A stretch of 32,213 nucleotides of DNA, taken from positions 2,105 to 34,317 of the forward strand of contig PMDK01000330.1 in assembly GCA_003154425.1 (NCBI GenBank). Reading direction: 5' to 3'. The notes below the pieces were generated by a model. The model was not told the DNA's origin and made no database searches. It saw only the letters and a list, made by a program, of their open reading frames with translations. Source of the stretch: Ignavibacteriota bacterium (GTDB lineage Bacteria; Bacteroidota; Ignavibacteria; UBA10030; UBA6906). Shown here in pieces: positions 2,059 to 29,618 of the stretch. The position numbers and the translations under genes are program-made. Positions within the stretch are counted from its first letter, which is position 1. Each line of letters opens with the position of its first letter.

Positions 2059-2844
2059 ATGCCGCAGATCCCCGAATCCGTCCCACCCATCGGGTGTGTC
2101 ACGCGTCCCTGGGGTTCGTTCCGCCGGTTCGCGAACAACCGGGAAGTGACCGTCAGTCTCATGAGCGTGAACCCGGGAAAGCACCTGAGCCTGCAGTCAC
2201 ACCGGGGCCGCGTCGAACTCTGGATCGTCCTTGACCCGGGAGCGGTCGTCCAGGTGGATGACGACATCCTCCATCCCGAACCGGGCGCAGAGGTCTGGAT
2301 CCCGGCCGGAGCAAAGCACAGGCTCGGGAGCGCCGGAGGGACTGTGCGCGTGCTGGAAGTGGCGTTCGGCGACTGGCAGCAGGAGGACATCTCGCGGTAC
2401 GACGACGACTACCACCGCCCGCTTCCACTCCGCCGGGCACGCCCTGAAAAGCGAAGAGGAGATCATCCCTCTGGTCGGGCCGTTTCTCGGCGGGGACGAC
2501 CCCCTGTTCGGCAGGACGTGCACGCTCCCCCTCGAATCCTTTCACCGACTGGCGCCTCCTCCTGCCTGGGGGGGGACTGTCACGTCCCGCTCCAGCGGGA
2601 CTCTCTATTATATACGGAATGGGGGCGGCACTCGCGCCCGTCAAACGACCGGATGCTCGGCCGATTCGGCGAACGGTTCGGCTACGAGTTTCCGATCCGG
2701 TACGACTTCCCCGACACCTTCGGCGGAGGGAACCTCTCGCTGCAGTGCCATCCGCGCCCGGAGTACATACACCGCAATTTCGGCGAACCCTTTACGCAGG
2801 ATGAAGCCTACTACATCCTCGACTGCAGGCCGGAGGGGACATAA
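2059..2844 (+). CDS. Mannose-6-phosphate-isomerase-like cupin, fused by deletion to an MPI fragment
   Basis: The ATG lies 2 nt after the pgiA stop. The first 118 or so residues form a complete single cupin like the C-terminal domain of type II mannose-6-phosphate isomerases. It has a RPWGSF start, [14 protein letters not shown] with metal-ligand histidines, [10 protein letters not shown], and the typical ending DISRYDDDY. The family normally stops a few residues later. Here the frame runs on for about 80 unrelated residues (2420-2650) and then re-enters, by chance of frame, real sequence of another enzyme, [17 protein letters not shown] onward, ending at 2844. The fusion is therefore best explained by deletions in the following gene rather than a designed two-domain enzyme. 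The cupin part may still fold and act on a sugar phosphate; the tail is probably not functional. Confidence 0.6.
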
Positions 2845-2872
2845 TGAGAAAGGGGAACGACTGAGGCAATGA
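2421..2872 (+). pseudogene. Broken class I mannose-6-phosphate isomerase (long form)
   Basis: Three pieces of one long class I mannose-6-phosphate isomerase (normally near 590 residues) lie in three frames. Piece one (frame of 2423) reads [20 protein letters not shown] and continues to about 2567. A run of eight G at 2568-2575 then shifts the frame to [14 protein letters not shown] (to about 2635). A jump follows to [31 protein letters not shown] and [12 protein letters not shown] (2652-2833). The Zn-site segment QCHP is kept. Roughly the first 60 residues, some 170 in the middle and the C-terminal half are missing (estimated from memory of the family layout). A final TGA (2870-2872) overlaps the next ATG as ATGA, so the original 3' end seems preserved. 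The enzyme cannot be active. Confidence 0.65.
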
Positions 2873-5484
2873 CGAGCTCATGGAAACGACATCTCCCGCT
2901 CCTCCTCACGCTGACATTCCTCCCGCGGACAGACTTCGCGCAGACGGGACCTCCAAAGGTCGATTTCGGCTATTCCCCCGCCACGCATTTGAGCGCGATC
3001 TGTTTCCCGGCCGACTGGCAGAAAACGGTCATCACCGAGCGGGGTTCGCTCGGATATGATTTCGGCCCCGGCCCGTACACCCGGCCGCTCACGGAAATTT
3101 CCCTGGGAGCGAAGGAAACAGTCCTTTCCCCGGAAGGACCGTCGATCCGTGACCCGCGCGTCCCGATCGCAACGGTCCGACTGAAGGGGGAGGGAGCACG
3201 CGCGCTCCTGGAAGAGTTCGCACTCGGCGGAAGGAGAGTCACGCTCCCCTCTTCTTCATTCCTTGGCGGGAAGATCCGCCGGCTGGGGGGTCTCGCCGGC
3301 GCCCGGGGATGGGCCAGCCCGCCGGACTCCTGCGACCCTGCATTCCGCAACGTCGCCTGGGGGACGAACCGGCCGGTACTCTACAGGGTGCGTGTGCCGC
3401 GGGGGAGCTCCCGCCGTATTGCGCTCGGGTTCTGCGAATCCTACAAGGGGACGCAGGGACAGCGGGTGATGGACCTGCGCGTCGAGGGGGCCCCGCCGAT
3501 GACGATCGATGCACTCAAAGATAATGTGAGAAACAGACCGTATGTGTATTTCCTCGAGGGACGCGATCGGAACGGCGACGGAGAGATTGCCGTCGAAGTG
3601 CATGCCTCACAGAAGGGGGTCGATCCCAATGTGATACTCAACGCATTCTGGGTATTCCCGCAGGGAACGCCCATCACCGAAGAAGAAGTGATCCACGGAG
3701 AGGGGACACGCCGTGCAGAAATCGCCTGGACATGCGGGCTGGAGAACGAACTGGGGACGGCCGTCTCGCGCGTCGACGGCATACTCGCCCATTTTGAAGG
3801 AAAACGGCTCACTCCCGTTGTCAGCGTGCGGACCGGGCGCGCGCTGTCGTTCGACGGGACGACATGCGCACTCGGCTCACCCGGACGCCCGTTCGTCGTC
3901 GCCCGGCCACGCTTCACGAGGGCTTCGCGGGAGGGGAACACATGGAGCCTCGAACTTCCCGAGGGGACGACAGACGCACAGGTGTTCATTCTGAACGGCG
4001 GGAACGCGCGCCGGGCTGCGGCGCATCTCCCGGATCTGAAGGATGCCCGGAATGAGGCGGAGCTCTTCTGGAAGACCAAGGCCGGACTCCCGTTCGGACG
4101 CATCTCGGTTCCCGACAGCGCCATCCAATACGTCCTGGATGCGAGCATCCGGAATCTGTACCAGATCGCCGAGTGGGTGGACGGGCACTTCCAGTTCCAG
4201 CCGGGACCGAGCGTCTACCGGGGGCTCTGGATGCATGATGCAGCGTGGGACGTGTCGACAATGATGGCGCTCGGGGATACCGCTTCGGCGCGCATGTCGA
4301 TCGAGACAGCACTCCGCTACCAGGGGAGGGACGGCCGGATATTCCAGAGCGAACCGTACCCCATGCTGCGGGAGACTGGGCTCATTCTTTTTGCGCTCTG
4401 TAACTACGCGAAGGTCTCGGGGAATACTCCCTGGTTGAGGAGCCACTTCCCCGCCGTGGGCGCTGCAGTGGGATGGATTCGGAGGACGCGCGCACAGACG
4501 CTCACCGATCCCTCCTCCCCCAACTACGGCCTCTTCCCCCCGGGGTTCACCGACGGCGGGATCGGGGGACTTGCTGCGGAATACGGAACCACATTCTGGT
4601 CGTTGAACGCACTCCGGGCCGCCTCACGGAGTGCATCATCGCTGGGGATCGGAGACAGCGCCGGATCGTGGAATGCGCTCGCAGACGACCTGATGGGCTC
4701 CTTCAGGAAAGCATCAATGCGTGACGTCCGGCGCGACTCACACGGCAATATCTACCTCCCCATGAGAGTCGGCGACACATCTTCGGTCACGCTCCCGCAA
4801 CAGGCCAACTGGGGGCTGCTGGACGGGCAGGCGTTCGGACATCTCTTCCCCTATGCGGACCCGGTCCTGAACGGGACGCTTGCCATGCTCGATGCGAACA
4901 CCACCGAAGGAATTCACCAGGACGTCGGATGGCTGAGAAAGGGGGTGTGGCCGTTCTTTACCGCGCAGGAGGGGATCGTGCATATGTACCAGCGGAACTA
5001 TGCGCGGGCGAAGGAGATACTGTACGCTGTCGCCAACCATGCATCCCCTCTCGGCACATGGCTGGAGGAACAGCTTCCGAAGGAACTGGGGACTCGCACG
5101 GCAGGTGACGCCTCCGACGCGACGGCGGGATCACTTTTCATCCTCCTCCTCAGGGATATGATCGTCAATGAACGAACAGACACGGTTGAAGTCCTGGGGG
5201 GAGTCCCTGCCGGCTGGTACATGAGCGGAGCCCGGCTTCGCCTTGACAGGGTGCTGACGGACTTCGGGCCCATCTCGCTTGATCTCAGTGTCTCATCTGA
5301 CGGAGCTACGTGCACGCTTTCGGTGGGGAAGATCCCCCGTGCCACGCATTGCACACTCCGCATCGTGCTTGAAGGATTGCGGGAGGCGGGATTCACGTAT
5401 GCCGGCGGCGGCGGACTTCCCGCAGCACGGGAGTTTCCGGCACCCGAGGGAACAACGATCGCATTCACGGCACGACACCGGTGA
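2869..5484 (+). CDS. Secreted malectin-like / (alpha/alpha)-barrel glycosidase-like protein, copy 1
   Basis: An 871-residue exported protein with an N-terminal signal peptide (basic MTSSWKRH, hydrophobic LPLLLTLTFL, end near AQ). Residues about 140-270 look like a carbohydrate-binding beta domain of malectin type (AWGTNRPVLYRV, RDRNGDGEIAVEV, DPNVILNAFWVFP). From about residue 405 the sequence is helical and resembles six-hairpin glycosidases: VYRGLWMHDAAWD with Asp457, YGLFPPGFTDGG, and GTWLEEQ with Glu733/Glu734 followed by TAGDASDA. These acidic residues are candidates for catalysis, by analogy only. I cannot place it in a numbered GH family. It is the first of two tandem paralogues, overlapping the second by 4 nt (GTGA). 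Function: probably extracytoplasmic hydrolysis of a glycan, substrate unknown. Confidence 0.7.
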   Translation: MTSSWKRHLPLLLTLTFLPRTDFAQTGPPKVDFGYSPATHLSAICFPADWQKTVITERGSLGYDFGPGPYTRPLTEISLGAKETVLSPEGPSIRDPRVPIATVRLKGEGARALLEEFALGGRRVTLPSSSFLGGKIRRLGGLAGARGWASPPDSCDPAFRNVAWGTNRPVLYRVRVPRGSSRRIALGFCESYKGTQGQRVMDLRVEGAPPMTIDALKDNVRNRPYVYFLEGRDRNGDGEIAVEVHASQKGVDPNVILNAFWVFPQGTPITEEEVIHGEGTRRAEIAWTCGLENELGTAVSRVDGILAHFEGKRLTPVVSVRTGRALSFDGTTCALGSPGRPFVVARPRFTRASREGNTWSLELPEGTTDAQVFILNGGNARRAAAHLPDLKDARNEAELFWKTKAGLPFGRISVPDSAIQYVLDASIRNLYQIAEWVDGHFQFQPGPSVYRGLWMHDAAWDVSTMMALGDTASARMSIETALRYQGRDGRIFQSEPYPMLRETGLILFALCNYAKVSGNTPWLRSHFPAVGAAVGWIRRTRAQTLTDPSSPNYGLFPPGFTDGGIGGLAAEYGTTFWSLNALRAASRSASSLGIGDSAGSWNALADDLMGSFRKASMRDVRRDSHGNIYLPMRVGDTSSVTLPQQANWGLLDGQAFGHLFPYADPVLNGTLAMLDANTTEGIHQDVGWLRKGVWPFFTAQEGIVHMYQRNYARAKEILYAVANHASPLGTWLEEQLPKELGTRTAGDASDATAGSLFILLLRDMIVNERTDTVEVLGGVPAGWYMSGARLRLDRVLTDFGPISLDLSVSSDGATCTLSVGKIPRATHCTLRIVLEGLREAGFTYAGGGGLPAAREFPAPEGTTIAFTARHR

Positions 5485-8102
5485 GCAGGCGGCTCATCAT
5501 ATGGAGCGTTGTGTTTTCAGCGGGGAGCTCCATCGCGCGCCCCGGAGACCCGGCAGTGGACCACCGGTACGAGAGCGAACGACAGTACACGCTGCTGAAT
5601 TTCCCGTTTGACTACCACAAAACGATACTGCTCGGCAGCGGCGCTCTGGCATACGATTTCGGCCCCGGGCCATACCATGAGGCCGGGACGGAGATCGGGT
5701 TCGCCCTCCCGGGGGAACAGGACCCCGACATCCGGCAGTATTTCGCGGACCCTGCAATCCCCGTGGCGACGACGGTGCTCCGGAGCCGGTTCATACGGTG
5801 CACGGCAAATGCATTCTGCGTCGTCCCCCCGTCAACAGATTTTCCTTCATCATTCAGCTCGGGCGCCGTCAGGAGGCTGGGACATCTGGCCGGCGCCACC
5901 GAATGGGCCGACCCGGCCGGAATCGTCGATCCCGCATTCCGCGGCACGGCCTGGGGGACCAACCGTCCGATCGAATACCGTGTGAAAGTGAATCCAGGAA
6001 GCGACAAAGTGGTTCTCCTCGGAGTGTGCGAGGGATACAAATCCGGCCGGGGGCAGAGGGTCCTTGAGTGCCGTGTCGAGGGGGCTCCGCCGCAGACGAT
6101 CGACCCCGTCGGGGAGGGAGGAAAGAACGTGCCTCATGTCCTCGTGTTTACCGGACGCGACGTGAACGGCGACGGCGAGATATCGATCGAGGCACGATTC
6201 GCCCCCGAGAGCGGCGATCCCAACGTCATACTCAACGCATTCTGGGTATTCCCGGCCGGAACGACGATCGACACGGGTGCGGTCATACGGGGGGAAATGT
6301 CGGGGAAAGCGGAGGTGTACTGGGGATGCGGACATGAGCTCGAGCTCCTCTCCCCCGCTCCGCGCACAGACGCGCTCACCGCCTCGATCACGGGGGGAGG
6401 TGCGGCCCCCGTCCTTGTGGTCACGACACGCCGCCCTCTTGAGTACGACACACTGAGCGGAACCATACTGCTCCCCCCCGGCATGACGGTTCGCTGCACA
6501 CCCGCTCCACTGGCCGGAAATTCCGCGGGGGACGGCCCGAGGAAGCGCTGGACATTTCCGCTTCCCGGAGGGACGACCCGGGTGGAGCTCCGGGTGACGC
6601 AGGCGCCCGGAGAATTCCCGGGAGGGAAGGACCGCCCTTTCATTCTCAGGGAGGAACTGAACCGGGCCAGGAAGTACTGGAAATCCCAGCGTGTGATACC
6701 GCAGGGGAGAATCGTCATACCGGACAGCGCGCTGCAGGGGATACTCGACGTCAACGTACGTGCGATGTACCAGGCCGCCGAGAAAGTCGACGGAGCCCCC
6801 GTGTTCCAGCCGGGGCCGACTGTCTACAGGGGACTTTTCCTGTACGACCTCCTCCTCATGGGGGAAGCCCTCCTGGCTCTCGGGGACACGGCTTCGGTGC
6901 GTGGATTCATCGAAGGGACATTTCACTACCAGCAGAAGGACGGCCGTCTGCGCGTCCTGACGCCGGCCAATTCGTTCCTGGAGACCCCCATTTTCGTTCA
7001 CGCCATGGGGCATTATGCCCGTCTGTCGCAGAACAAACCGTGGATGGAGATCGAGTGGCCCCGCATGGTGAGCGCCGTGGACTGGATCCGGAACGCGCGC
7101 CGGGAGACGATGCACGACACGGCTGCACCTGGGTACGGACTTTTTCCCCCGGGGTTCGTCGACGGAGGCCTTACGGGTTCAGTGCCGGATTTCAGCACCG
7201 CGACGTTCGCGCTCATGGCGCTGGAAACAGCCGCCGGGACTGCGCGCTGGCTCGGTCATTCGATCCAGGAGAAGGAGTGGCGGTCCCTTTTCGATGAGCT
7301 CCTGGCGGATTATGTGCGCGCCGCCAGACGGAGCCTCAGGCATGACCGCTTCGGCACGGTGTACCTCCCCGTAACGGTCGGCGATACGTCGACGGGGGCA
7401 CCGCCGCAGCGGGGACAGTATGGATTCCTCGGCTCGCTCCGGTACGCGAGGTATTTCGGCTGCCACGACCCGTTCCTCGATTCAATCGCCGGCGGGAACC
7501 TGACGATGCTCGATTCCACGCTGAGTGAAGGGATGATACGGGACGCCGGATGGACGTCGGGCGCGGTCTGGTCATGGCTCGGCCTCGCACACGCCTCCGC
7601 ACTTTCCTGGCGGGGGGAAGGCCGACGGGCGGCAACGATGGTCTACGATGTGGCCAACCACTCCGGGCGGCTCGGCACATGGGTCGAAGAACAGCAGCTC
7701 CGGGGGAAGGGGACGCGATCGACGGGGGACGGTTCAGATGCGGAAACAAGCGCCTGTCTTGTCGGTGCAATCAGGGATCTCCTCTACTTTGAACGGGGGG
7801 ATACACTTGATATCTTCCCCGGAGTCCCTGCCGCGTGGTTCAGGGAAGGATCTCGCATTGCGATTCACGATGTGCCGACGGAGTGGGGGCGGCTCACACT
7901 GGATGCGGCCTCCTCGGCCGCCGGAGTGCTCATCCGGGTTGCGCTTGCGGGCCCCCCCGCCGGGGGGACGGATGCTCCCCTTGTATCGGTCCGGGCCGAG
8001 ACACTGCGGAACGCGGGGGAGCGGGGGGGGCGGATCCCGCCCGGTCCCATCCTCAGGCGCTATGACAGGATGAAGGCCATGGAGATCCGTCTGGCACGGT
8101 AG
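5481..8102 (+). CDS. Secreted malectin-like / (alpha/alpha)-barrel glycosidase-like protein, copy 2
   Basis: An 873-residue paralogue of the preceding gene with the same architecture: signal peptide (MSRRLIIWSVVFSAGSS), malectin-like region (AWGTNRPIEYRV, RDVNGDGEISIEA, DPNVILNAFWVFP) and an (alpha/alpha)-barrel-like half. Conserved with copy 1 are the loop YGLFPPGFVDGG, Asp456 in LFLYDLL, the pair Glu736/Glu737 in GTWVEEQ, and TGDGSDA. The aromatic surroundings of the first Asp differ: copy 1 has MHDAAWD and copy 2 has LYDLLLMG. This suggests altered specificity or loss of activity in one copy. The start is a GTG overlapping the previous TGA. After the stop there is a short GGCGCC hairpin before the next gene. 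No numbered glycosidase family is claimed. Confidence 0.7.
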   Translation: MSRRLIIWSVVFSAGSSIARPGDPAVDHRYESERQYTLLNFPFDYHKTILLGSGALAYDFGPGPYHEAGTEIGFALPGEQDPDIRQYFADPAIPVATTVLRSRFIRCTANAFCVVPPSTDFPSSFSSGAVRRLGHLAGATEWADPAGIVDPAFRGTAWGTNRPIEYRVKVNPGSDKVVLLGVCEGYKSGRGQRVLECRVEGAPPQTIDPVGEGGKNVPHVLVFTGRDVNGDGEISIEARFAPESGDPNVILNAFWVFPAGTTIDTGAVIRGEMSGKAEVYWGCGHELELLSPAPRTDALTASITGGGAAPVLVVTTRRPLEYDTLSGTILLPPGMTVRCTPAPLAGNSAGDGPRKRWTFPLPGGTTRVELRVTQAPGEFPGGKDRPFILREELNRARKYWKSQRVIPQGRIVIPDSALQGILDVNVRAMYQAAEKVDGAPVFQPGPTVYRGLFLYDLLLMGEALLALGDTASVRGFIEGTFHYQQKDGRLRVLTPANSFLETPIFVHAMGHYARLSQNKPWMEIEWPRMVSAVDWIRNARRETMHDTAAPGYGLFPPGFVDGGLTGSVPDFSTATFALMALETAAGTARWLGHSIQEKEWRSLFDELLADYVRAARRSLRHDRFGTVYLPVTVGDTSTGAPPQRGQYGFLGSLRYARYFGCHDPFLDSIAGGNLTMLDSTLSEGMIRDAGWTSGAVWSWLGLAHASALSWRGEGRRAATMVYDVANHSGRLGTWVEEQQLRGKGTRSTGDGSDAETSACLVGAIRDLLYFERGDTLDIFPGVPAAWFREGSRIAIHDVPTEWGRLTLDAASSAAGVLIRVALAGPPAGGTDAPLVSVRAETLRNAGERGGRIPPGPILRRYDRMKAMEIRLAR

Positions 8103-28049: not shown

Positions 28050-28107
28050 GCCCCCGACCGGCGAAGGGCTTTCAGTTGTCTCACGCAGCGGCGGGACCCC
28101 ATCACGC

Positions 28108-28137
28108 GACCGGGGGAGGCCTGCGCCCCCCCCGGTC
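28108..28137 (-). terminator. GC-rich hairpin after the adaptor-repeat gene
   Basis: GACCGGGGG (28108-28116) pairs with CCCCCGGTC (28129-28137) around a 12-nt loop. It lies 35 nt past the stop of the - strand gene above it. The stem is strong but no T-run follows on the - strand, so it may be a weak or Rho-aided terminator, or an mRNA 3' end stabiliser. The rest of 27922-28171 holds the leader and promoter described separately. Confidence 0.4.
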
Positions 28138-28171
28138 ATACGACGGCTCTCTCAAGTGACGAGAGGGAGAG

Positions 28172-28537
28172 TTACTTACCCTTCACATAAACCTTGTCCC
28201 CTTTGGCCGAGTAGTAGAACTTCCCCCCCTTGGGACCCTCGTAGATGTTCAGCCCGTCCTTCGTCTTTCCCACGATCTTCGCACCGACGAAATCCTTCAC
28301 GTAGACCTTTCCCCCTTTGTCGCTGAGATAGTAGTACCCGCCCCGGGAGCCCTCAAATACGGTCTTCCCTTCGGTCGTCTTGCCGACCGCCGGATCATCA
28401 GTCTTCGGGACTTTCTTCTCGTCCACTCCCTTCGTTGTGGCGGTCTTCGTCATGGCGTCCTTCTTCTGCGCCAGTGCGCCCGACTGAACAGCGAGAAATG
28501 CTGCGATGAGAATGAGAAGCGCAAGGAGTCTCTTCAT
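28172..28537 (-). CDS. Small exported protein with two PBCV-type basic adaptor repeats
   Basis: A 121-residue protein. The ATG at 28537 is preceded by GAAGGTG and starts a clean signal peptide (MKRLLALLILIAAFLAVQSGALAQ); an ATG six codons earlier is less likely. After a Lys/Thr/Asp-rich linker there are two copies of a short repeat: VFEGSRGGYYYLSDKGGKVYV and, about 35 residues later, a copy beginning IYEGPKGGKFYY. Both match the PBCV-specific basic adaptor motif (YxGxRGGxYYxxxxGxKxYV), known from chlorovirus proteins and from small bacterial secreted proteins, role unclear. The mature protein is strongly basic and could bind polyanions or the cell surface. It lies 69 nt downstream of the barstar gene and may share its transcript. 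Confidence 0.7.
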   Translation of the reverse strand: MKRLLALLILIAAFLAVQSGALAQKKDAMTKTATTKGVDEKKVPKTDDPAVGKTTEGKTVFEGSRGGYYYLSDKGGKVYVKDFVGAKIVGKTKDGLNIYEGPKGGKFYYSAKGDKVYVKGK

Positions 28538-28606
28538 GTTGCACCTTCTGTGCATTGTGAGGTTTGATGTGGATTAGTGAAACGACATCTCCGCACACCA
28601 CCCGGC

Positions 28607-29089
28607 TCAGGAGGAAACGATCCCCCCTTCCGTGAGGCGGTGTTTCAGATCATCGGCGCTCCCCGGTTCACAGTGGAAGAGGCAATGGAATGATGCCGGC
28701 GGCTCCGAGGACGACCAGTGCGCGGCAGCCGCACTCAGTATGCCGGCGAATGTCTTCAACTCTCCCGGGCTGTTCTTCAGAACCTGATCGGCATTCGTTA
28801 TGATCAGGACGAATGCTTCGGCCGAAAGCCATTCCAGGTCGGTCAGGCAATCCTCGAGGGCATCCCAGTTCCGTCCGAAATAGCTCGGGAATTCCAGACC
28901 GCGCGCGAACTCACCAAGCAAGTCGTCCTTCGTGCCGCACTGATTCCCCCGGAGGACACGAACCGCGGCGTGTTTGCGCTGGGGGTGAGTGGCCGCAAAC
29001 TCCTCCACCAGCTTTCGCGGGACGGCGGCAATATGGGCCCAGTGCGGCCCGCGCTTCAACAGGGACGGCCATGAAAGAGGACCTGTCAT
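28607..29089 (-). CDS. Barstar-family ribonuclease inhibitor (immunity protein)
   Basis: A 160-residue protein whose ATG overlaps the barnase stop (ATGA), fixing the start. The barstar core is clear: a strand AAVRVLRG, then FPSYFGRNWDALEDCLTDLEWL, with Asp76 and Asp80 at the positions of the two barnase-binding acids (Asp35 and Asp39 in Bacillus barstar), and the strand AFVLIITNAD. It is longer than classical barstar (about 90) by an N-terminal extension of some 40 residues and a C-terminal tail. It should stay in the cytoplasm and block the RNase encoded just upstream before export. The pairing with the RNase makes this assignment strong. Confidence 0.88.
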   Translation of the reverse strand: MTGPLSWPSLLKRGPHWAHIAAVPRKLVEEFAATHPQRKHAAVRVLRGNQCGTKDDLLGEFARGLEFPSYFGRNWDALEDCLTDLEWLSAEAFVLIITNADQVLKNSPGELKTFAGILSAAAAHWSSSEPPASFHCLFHCEPGSADDLKHRLTEGGIVSS

Positions 29090-29490
29090 TTCGCACCGAT
29101 CCGGGTGAATGTGCGGTAGTGGTCCGCGGTATACCACCCTTTTCCCGCCGACCGGTCGACGATGATCCGTTCCGCCCCTCTGTTCATCCCCCGGACCCTG
29201 GGATGCACATCATACTCTCTGTAGTCTCCCCCCGCGGGGAGCCGGTGTTCCCTGTTCTGCCAGAGGCGGTCCCCCGCATATCCCCGGGGTGCCCGTCCGT
29301 TCCTGATGACATATGCAAACACCTCCCGCGCATAGGCCGGGATCTCCCCCCCTGACGTACGGTACCCTTCCACGGGGGAACGGGCGTTCTCCGCCGCACC
29401 CGGCAGAGCGAGAACGGGGTGAGAAAGAAAAAGGGGGAGAAGAAGAAGAACCGGCCACCACGTGCGGGGCCCTGCGTGAAACAACGACAT
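29086..29490 (-). CDS. Secreted barnase-type guanyl-specific ribonuclease
   Basis: A 134-residue protein with an N-terminal signal (WWPVLLLLPLFLSHPVLALPG) and a mature microbial RNase domain of about 100 residues. Catalytic residues are in order: Glu92 in YREYDV, Arg108 in GAERIIVD and His124 in TADHYRTF, equivalent to Glu73, Arg87 and His102 of barnase. WQNREHRLP and YAREVFAYVIRNG are typical of the N1/T1/barnase family. It cleaves RNA after guanosine. Exported, it may scavenge phosphate or nucleotides, or attack competitors. The barstar gene overlaps its 3' end by 4 nt. A promoter of the local consensus lies upstream; there is no strong ribosome site. Confidence 0.9.
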   Translation of the reverse strand: MSLFHAGPRTWWPVLLLLPLFLSHPVLALPGAAENARSPVEGYRTSGGEIPAYAREVFAYVIRNGRAPRGYAGDRLWQNREHRLPAGGDYREYDVHPRVRGMNRGAERIIVDRSAGKGWYTADHYRTFTRIGAK

Positions 29491-29523
29491 ATGTCGAATG
29501 CCCGGGGATCGTGAGAGGATTTC

Positions 29524-29554
29524 CGAATGTAATCGAACAACCCCGAATATGCAA
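29524..29554 (-). promoter_or_regulatory. Promoter for the barnase-barstar unit
   Basis: On the - strand TTG (29554-29552), 20 nt, then TACATTCG (29531-29524) gives seven of eight matches to TAnnTTTG at -7. The predicted leader is about 25 nt. It lies back to back with the histidine-kinase promoter, 17 nt apart, in a 128-nt divergent region. Confidence 0.5.
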
Positions 29555-29571
29555 CCCGCCCGCAGCTCACT

Positions 29572-29601
29572 TTGGTGTTTTCAGGCGGATTTGCTACCTT
29601 G
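29572..29601 (+). promoter_or_regulatory. Promoter for the histidine kinase-response regulator unit
   Basis: TTG (29572-29574), exactly 20 nt, then TACCTTG (29595-29601). The start codon follows only 17 nt after the -7 box, so the transcript is nearly leaderless, with GGAG just fitting before the ATG. Confidence 0.6.
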
Positions 29602-29618
29602 GTACACCTGGAGCAGGA

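Follow-up and report, generated by a model that had tools for sequence, protein, structure and literature searches.

Does a gene for a small, basic repeat protein that follows a ribonuclease (RNase) gene and a barstar gene belong to that pair as a third working part, or has it only come to lie there? The three genes are on the minus strand of the window, i.e., the 32,213-nt stretch of DNA analyzed here, which comes from contig C102 in a 3.84 Mb MAG (85.5% complete). The initial annotation envisaged a secreted toxin, its inhibitor and a polyanion- or surface-binding partner as one module for attack or nutrient capture. We consider it probable that the locus instead combines an RNase-barstar pair of known kind with a PBCV-repeat gene that is a passenger at the level of the genus.

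The RNase and its inhibitor

The RNase gene (29086..29490, minus strand) encodes a 134-aa protein that matches PF00545 with 47.4 bits (cut-off 24) over positions 14-97 of the 98-position profile, and this is its sole Pfam match up to an E-value of 1. Its best solved relative is RNase Sa3 (E-value 7.8e-08), and Sa3 and Sa rank ahead of binase and barnase. In the alignment, Q78, N79, E81, E92, R104, R108 and H124 of the window protein correspond to Q38, N39, E41, E54, R65, R69 and H85 of RNase Sa, which we take to be, by the roles and numbering of Sa, the catalytic set (a Glu, two Arg and a His) together with guanine-site residues. All catalytic residues are thus present, as first annotated, and the protein is predicted from its sequence to be a guanyl-specific RNase of the barnase/RNase Sa family, with the corresponding enzyme activity presumed. 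It would be exported by an N-terminal hydrophobic signal; a hydrophobic N-terminus, which export would call for, was seen by eye in the RNases of G000, G003, G010 and G016. The mature RNase is basic.

The barstar gene (28607..29089, minus strand) encodes a 160-aa inhibitor of the barstar family with about 43 extra N-terminal residues, matching PF01337 with 94.3 bits (cut-off 23.4) at residues 44-132 of the 161-codon query. We take D35, D39, W38 and E76 to be the RNase-binding residues of Bacillus barstar. In the alignment with barstar, D35 and D39 are kept as D76 and D80, and the W38 position is occupied by Glu. The helix expected to bear E76 (FAGILSAAAAHW) has no acidic residue there, a placement made by eye and outside the aligned stretch. 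In the Bacillus complex, barstar E76 pairs with barnase R59, a counterpart of which is likewise not evident in the window RNase. The earlier statement that the barnase-binding acids are intact therefore applies to the two aspartates and, by this by-eye placement, not to E76; W38 is lost as well. Both W38 and E76 are features of Bacillus barstar and are not needed for membership of the fold family.

The RNase stop and the barstar start share four bases (ATGA, 29089-29086), so the annotated overlap of the two genes was found; overlaps of this kind usually point to translational coupling. The barstar frame of G010 and G016 opens with a GTG within a few bases after the RNase stop.

Like Bacillus barnase/barstar and balifase-YrdF of B. 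licheniformis, the window pair joins a predicted secreted guanyl RNase to a barstar; the available account of balifase-YrdF places RNase and barstar in one operon and has the RNase raised on low phosphate (PMC5021464). Unlike barnase and balifase, the window RNase is closer to RNase Sa; unlike Bacillus barstar, the window barstar has an N-terminal extension and is without W38 and (by-eye placement) E76; and unlike in Bacillus, a PBCV-repeat gene follows. The likeness to Streptomyces RNase Sa and Sa3 extends to the aligned catalytic and guanine-site residues, whereas the window RNase comes from a different phylum and has an overlapping barstar gene.

The repeat-protein gene and the transcript boundaries

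The third gene (28172..28537, minus strand) encodes a 121-aa protein with two PBCV_basic_adap repeats, matching PF08789 with 26.3 bits (cut-off 20.4) in two stretches. Export of this protein is inferred from a hydrophobic N-terminus seen by eye, and with an assumed cleavage site the mature 98 residues include 22 K+R versus 12 D+E (pI 9.65). Both the two chlorovirus-type repeats and the strongly basic character that were first annotated are thereby confirmed. Like the chlorovirus proteins A278L and A282L, described as basic members of this repeat family in the available account (PMC3281028), the window protein is basic and carries the same repeats; unlike them, it is bacterial, predicted to be exported, without a kinase domain and limited to two repeats.

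The barstar and PBCV genes are separated by 69 nt (28538..28606, minus strand). A scan of this gap on the minus strand gave no terminator-like or promoter-like site, and its fold is unremarkable (z -0.10). Immediately past the PBCV gene lies a strong G/C hairpin (28080..28171, minus strand), a probable transcript 3' end, with z -3.97 for 28070-28171, a stability that none of 200 shuffles reached; G001 and G003, the relatives that were folded, also have a predicted G-run hairpin much like it. The clean gap and the hairpin beyond the third gene make a joint transcript of barstar and the PBCV gene plausible from sequence. The two genes also lie near enough for the transcript sharing first suggested, and they are adjacent in all four genomes of the genus. 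Some conservation of the gap is seen in G000, G001 and G003, and a separate promoter might lie within it.

Upstream of the RNase gene, a 128-nt region (29491..29618, minus strand), delimited by the genus alignment and the kinase start, separates it from a divergent gene pair. From 29619, the opposite strand encodes a PAS-domain histidine kinase and then a LuxR-type response regulator. The 128-nt region contains a sigma70-like TTGCAT-17-TACATT site that was seen by eye, is absent from the scan list and is present in the four genus genomes. Another sigma70-like site, TTGACT-17-TATATT (28049-28021, minus strand), with TG ahead of the second hexamer, is conserved in G001 and G003 and precedes a 76-aa ORF (27921-27691) of no clear family.

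Distribution of the three genes and loss of the RNase

The PF00545 search detected the RNase family in at least 9 of 395 genomes of the phylum, the source genome included, and this is a lower bound because the search missed the RNase of G016, which was found by protein search. Direct protein search located the RNase in 4 of 21 genomes of the family (G000, G003, G010 and G016); all further matches were weak (E-value above 0.01). Ten other RNase-bearing genomes, i.e., eight others of the phylum plus G010 and G016 from a neighboring genus, were compared. Nine of them have a barstar near the RNase on the same contig, and in the exception, G357, the RNase is at a contig end. The distance between the two genes is about 0.5 to 1.1 kb in G189, G349 and G361, with other open frames there. 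Those frames include a metalloprotease-like one (by eye). At L094, L096 and L103, which belong to another family of the phylum, the metalloprotease-like gene between RNase and barstar is archaemetzincin-like by eye. None of the ten genomes has a PF08789 match near its RNase. The coherent unit is therefore the RNase plus barstar, and the annotated RNase-inhibitor pair is well founded, given this co-occurrence and the PF00545 and PF01337 matches.

For the repeat protein, the neighborhood survey proposed in the initial annotation gave a split result. The barstar gene adjoins the PBCV gene in every genus genome (G000-G003), and it is only outside the genus that co-occurrence with the RNase fails. 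Among 100 relatives, PF08789 was detected in 18 genomes at an E-value ≤ 0.1 and in 14 above the cut-off, compared with 3 for the RNase and 6 for barstar; the repeat protein is thus more frequent than the pair and usually found in its absence. Related PBCV-repeat proteins are also found in other genera without RNase or barstar, and the window protein is, as judged from these matches, a member of a wider family of predicted exported proteins in these bacteria. With such relatives lacking the pair, a longer paralogue at another site of the source genome, no PBCV gene near the RNase elsewhere and the RNase present in only two genus genomes (G000 and G003), a three-part module for attack or nutrient capture finds no support outside this genus.

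The two remaining genus genomes keep the barstar. In G001 (L052, about 5990-6300), the RNase upstream region leads straight into roughly the final 9-10 codons of the RNase and then the ATG of barstar, and the gene body is gone; from this 3' remnant, the RNase gene was once present there. In G002 (L053, about 5980-6096), the RNase is missing and about 112 bp separate the barstar start from the kinase gene. Profile and protein searches found no other RNase of the barnase/RNase Sa family in either genome. Both barstar proteins are full-length and retain the binding motif YF(G/S)RNWDALEDCLTDLEW. NG86 dN/dS for barstar was 0.11-0.17 in five pairs with G001 or G002 versus 0.22 for the RNase-bearing pair G000-G003, values that are rough because the pairs are short and those with G002, for which YN00 gave no value, have a dS above 1. 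By this rough measure, the barstar genes of G001 and G002 are taken to be intact and under purifying selection. A genus tree from the zwf-like protein has G002 most distant and leaves the branching order unsettled, so two RNase losses and one loss plus regain are inseparable (rpoB was unusable as a marker, with no match in G000, and a sugar-binding protein was left out, with only a distant match in G001). The stretch examined in G001 contains no kinase or response regulator gene; the other genus genomes carry both here.

With this pair, a textbook system of enzyme and inhibitor extends to Ignavibacteria-type bacteria, in which, by the above counts (3/100 relatives and 4/21 family genomes), it is rare. 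If anything here could surprise a specialist, it is the barstar kept without an RNase, a concrete and testable case for asking whether barstar protects its maker alone or also serves as immunity.

In our preferred reading, a known kind of pair with a passenger gene, the secreted guanyl-specific RNase and a cytoplasmic barstar would make up a unit of two genes with coupled translation. The RNase would leave via its signal peptide and cut extracytoplasmic RNA, either to scavenge phosphate/nucleotides or to act against competitors, and barstar, translated from the start codon in the overlap, would neutralize RNase that folds early or re-enters. The PBCV gene would encode an exported basic protein of the wider family that came to lie behind barstar and is probably transcribed behind it in this genus, with the RNase pair needing none of it. 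In the two sister genomes, the RNase gene would have been lost and barstar left behind the same upstream region. The adjacency of barstar and the PBCV gene in all four genus genomes, even in G002 with its different downstream region, speaks against the passenger status, as the link may be selected; coming from only four species of one genus, this conservation weighs little either way.

The retained barstar hints at use of the inhibitor against RNases of other makers. Its role might be immunity against RNases from other strains, the locus behaving as a producer/immune polymorphism in which some lineages lost the RNase and kept the inhibitor behind the RNase promoter region; we regard this as possible, though clearly less likely than the passenger reading. 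In its favor are the upstream region and terminal codons left without the gene body in G001, the similarly short gap in G002, the failure to find a second RNase of this family in either genome, and full-length barstars with the motif and a lower dN/dS. Set against these, dN/dS is crude on short pairs with dS > 1 in the G002 comparisons, genes can drop out of MAG assemblies, and barstar could have another job; the E. coli and B. subtilis controls match the barstar family and give no match to the barnase/RNase Sa family. Somewhat more speculative is a specific scenario for this peat-type genus, in which lineages of this polymorphism would have lost the RNase cleanly between its promoter region and the start codon of barstar that overlaps it, keeping barstar (with the PBCV protein) against the RNases secreted by relatives; the inhibitor would then act not only inside its own cell but also between cells.

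A three-part module, in which the basic PBCV protein would attach to RNA or cell surfaces and keep substrate or RNase close to the cell, seems improbable. The constant barstar-PBCV adjacency, the basic pI of 9.65 and the hairpin after the third gene, suggestive of one unit, would agree with it, and two PBCV-1 kinase proteins with the PBCV_basic_adap domain are listed among proteins recovered with virion DNA in the available account (PMC3281028), which fits a possible polyanion-binding role for the domain. However, the PBCV gene is kept in two of the four genus genomes without the RNase and is near the RNase in 0/10 genomes elsewhere, and the RNase, with a pI of 10.14 in its mature form, is basic too, which leaves no reason from charge alone for the two proteins to bind. 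Less likely still is delivery of the RNase by a polymorphic-toxin system, as a toxin for competition. A Pseudomonas CDI locus reportedly has an immunity protein with a barstar domain (PMC4725963), and RNase domains of this family seem to serve such systems elsewhere, as in G357, where one ends a larger open frame beside Rhs-like sequence (by eye), but the window RNase has only 134 aa with its own N-terminal signal, and the Pfam search up to an E-value of 1 revealed no large CDI, T6SS or Rhs delivery region fused to it.

Paralogues and relatives of the repeat protein

The source genome encodes a longer PBCV paralogue (C340; ~280 aa), in which a Lys-rich stretch is followed by two repeats and which adjoins a zwf-like gene. 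The long paralogue is also found in G001 and G002, where its contig carries a zwf-like gene as well, and in G003 the match sits in a frame of only 66 aa. An origin of the short gene as a duplicate of the long paralogue was considered and dropped, as the tree had only 2 of 11 inner branches starred and gave no resolution. AlphaFold2 on the single PBCV sequence produced a poor model (mean pLDDT 53, pTM 0.35). Neither the PBCV alignment nor barstar had a confirmed viral relative in viral_contigs. Searches of open-licence literature returned no barnase-barstar paper on Ignavibacteri, and none under PBCV-specific basic adaptor, PBCV_basic_adap, or PBCV basic adaptor with Bacteroidetes.

Lys-rich proteins, predicted to be exported, with two C-terminal PBCV repeats adjoin zwf-like genes at L059 (about 2468-3300) and L060 (4546-5463), an arrangement that is recurrent in these bacteria. 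In other genera, L023 and L026 encode single-repeat PBCV proteins with a Cys-containing segment (CSY...CxxC) ahead of the repeat.
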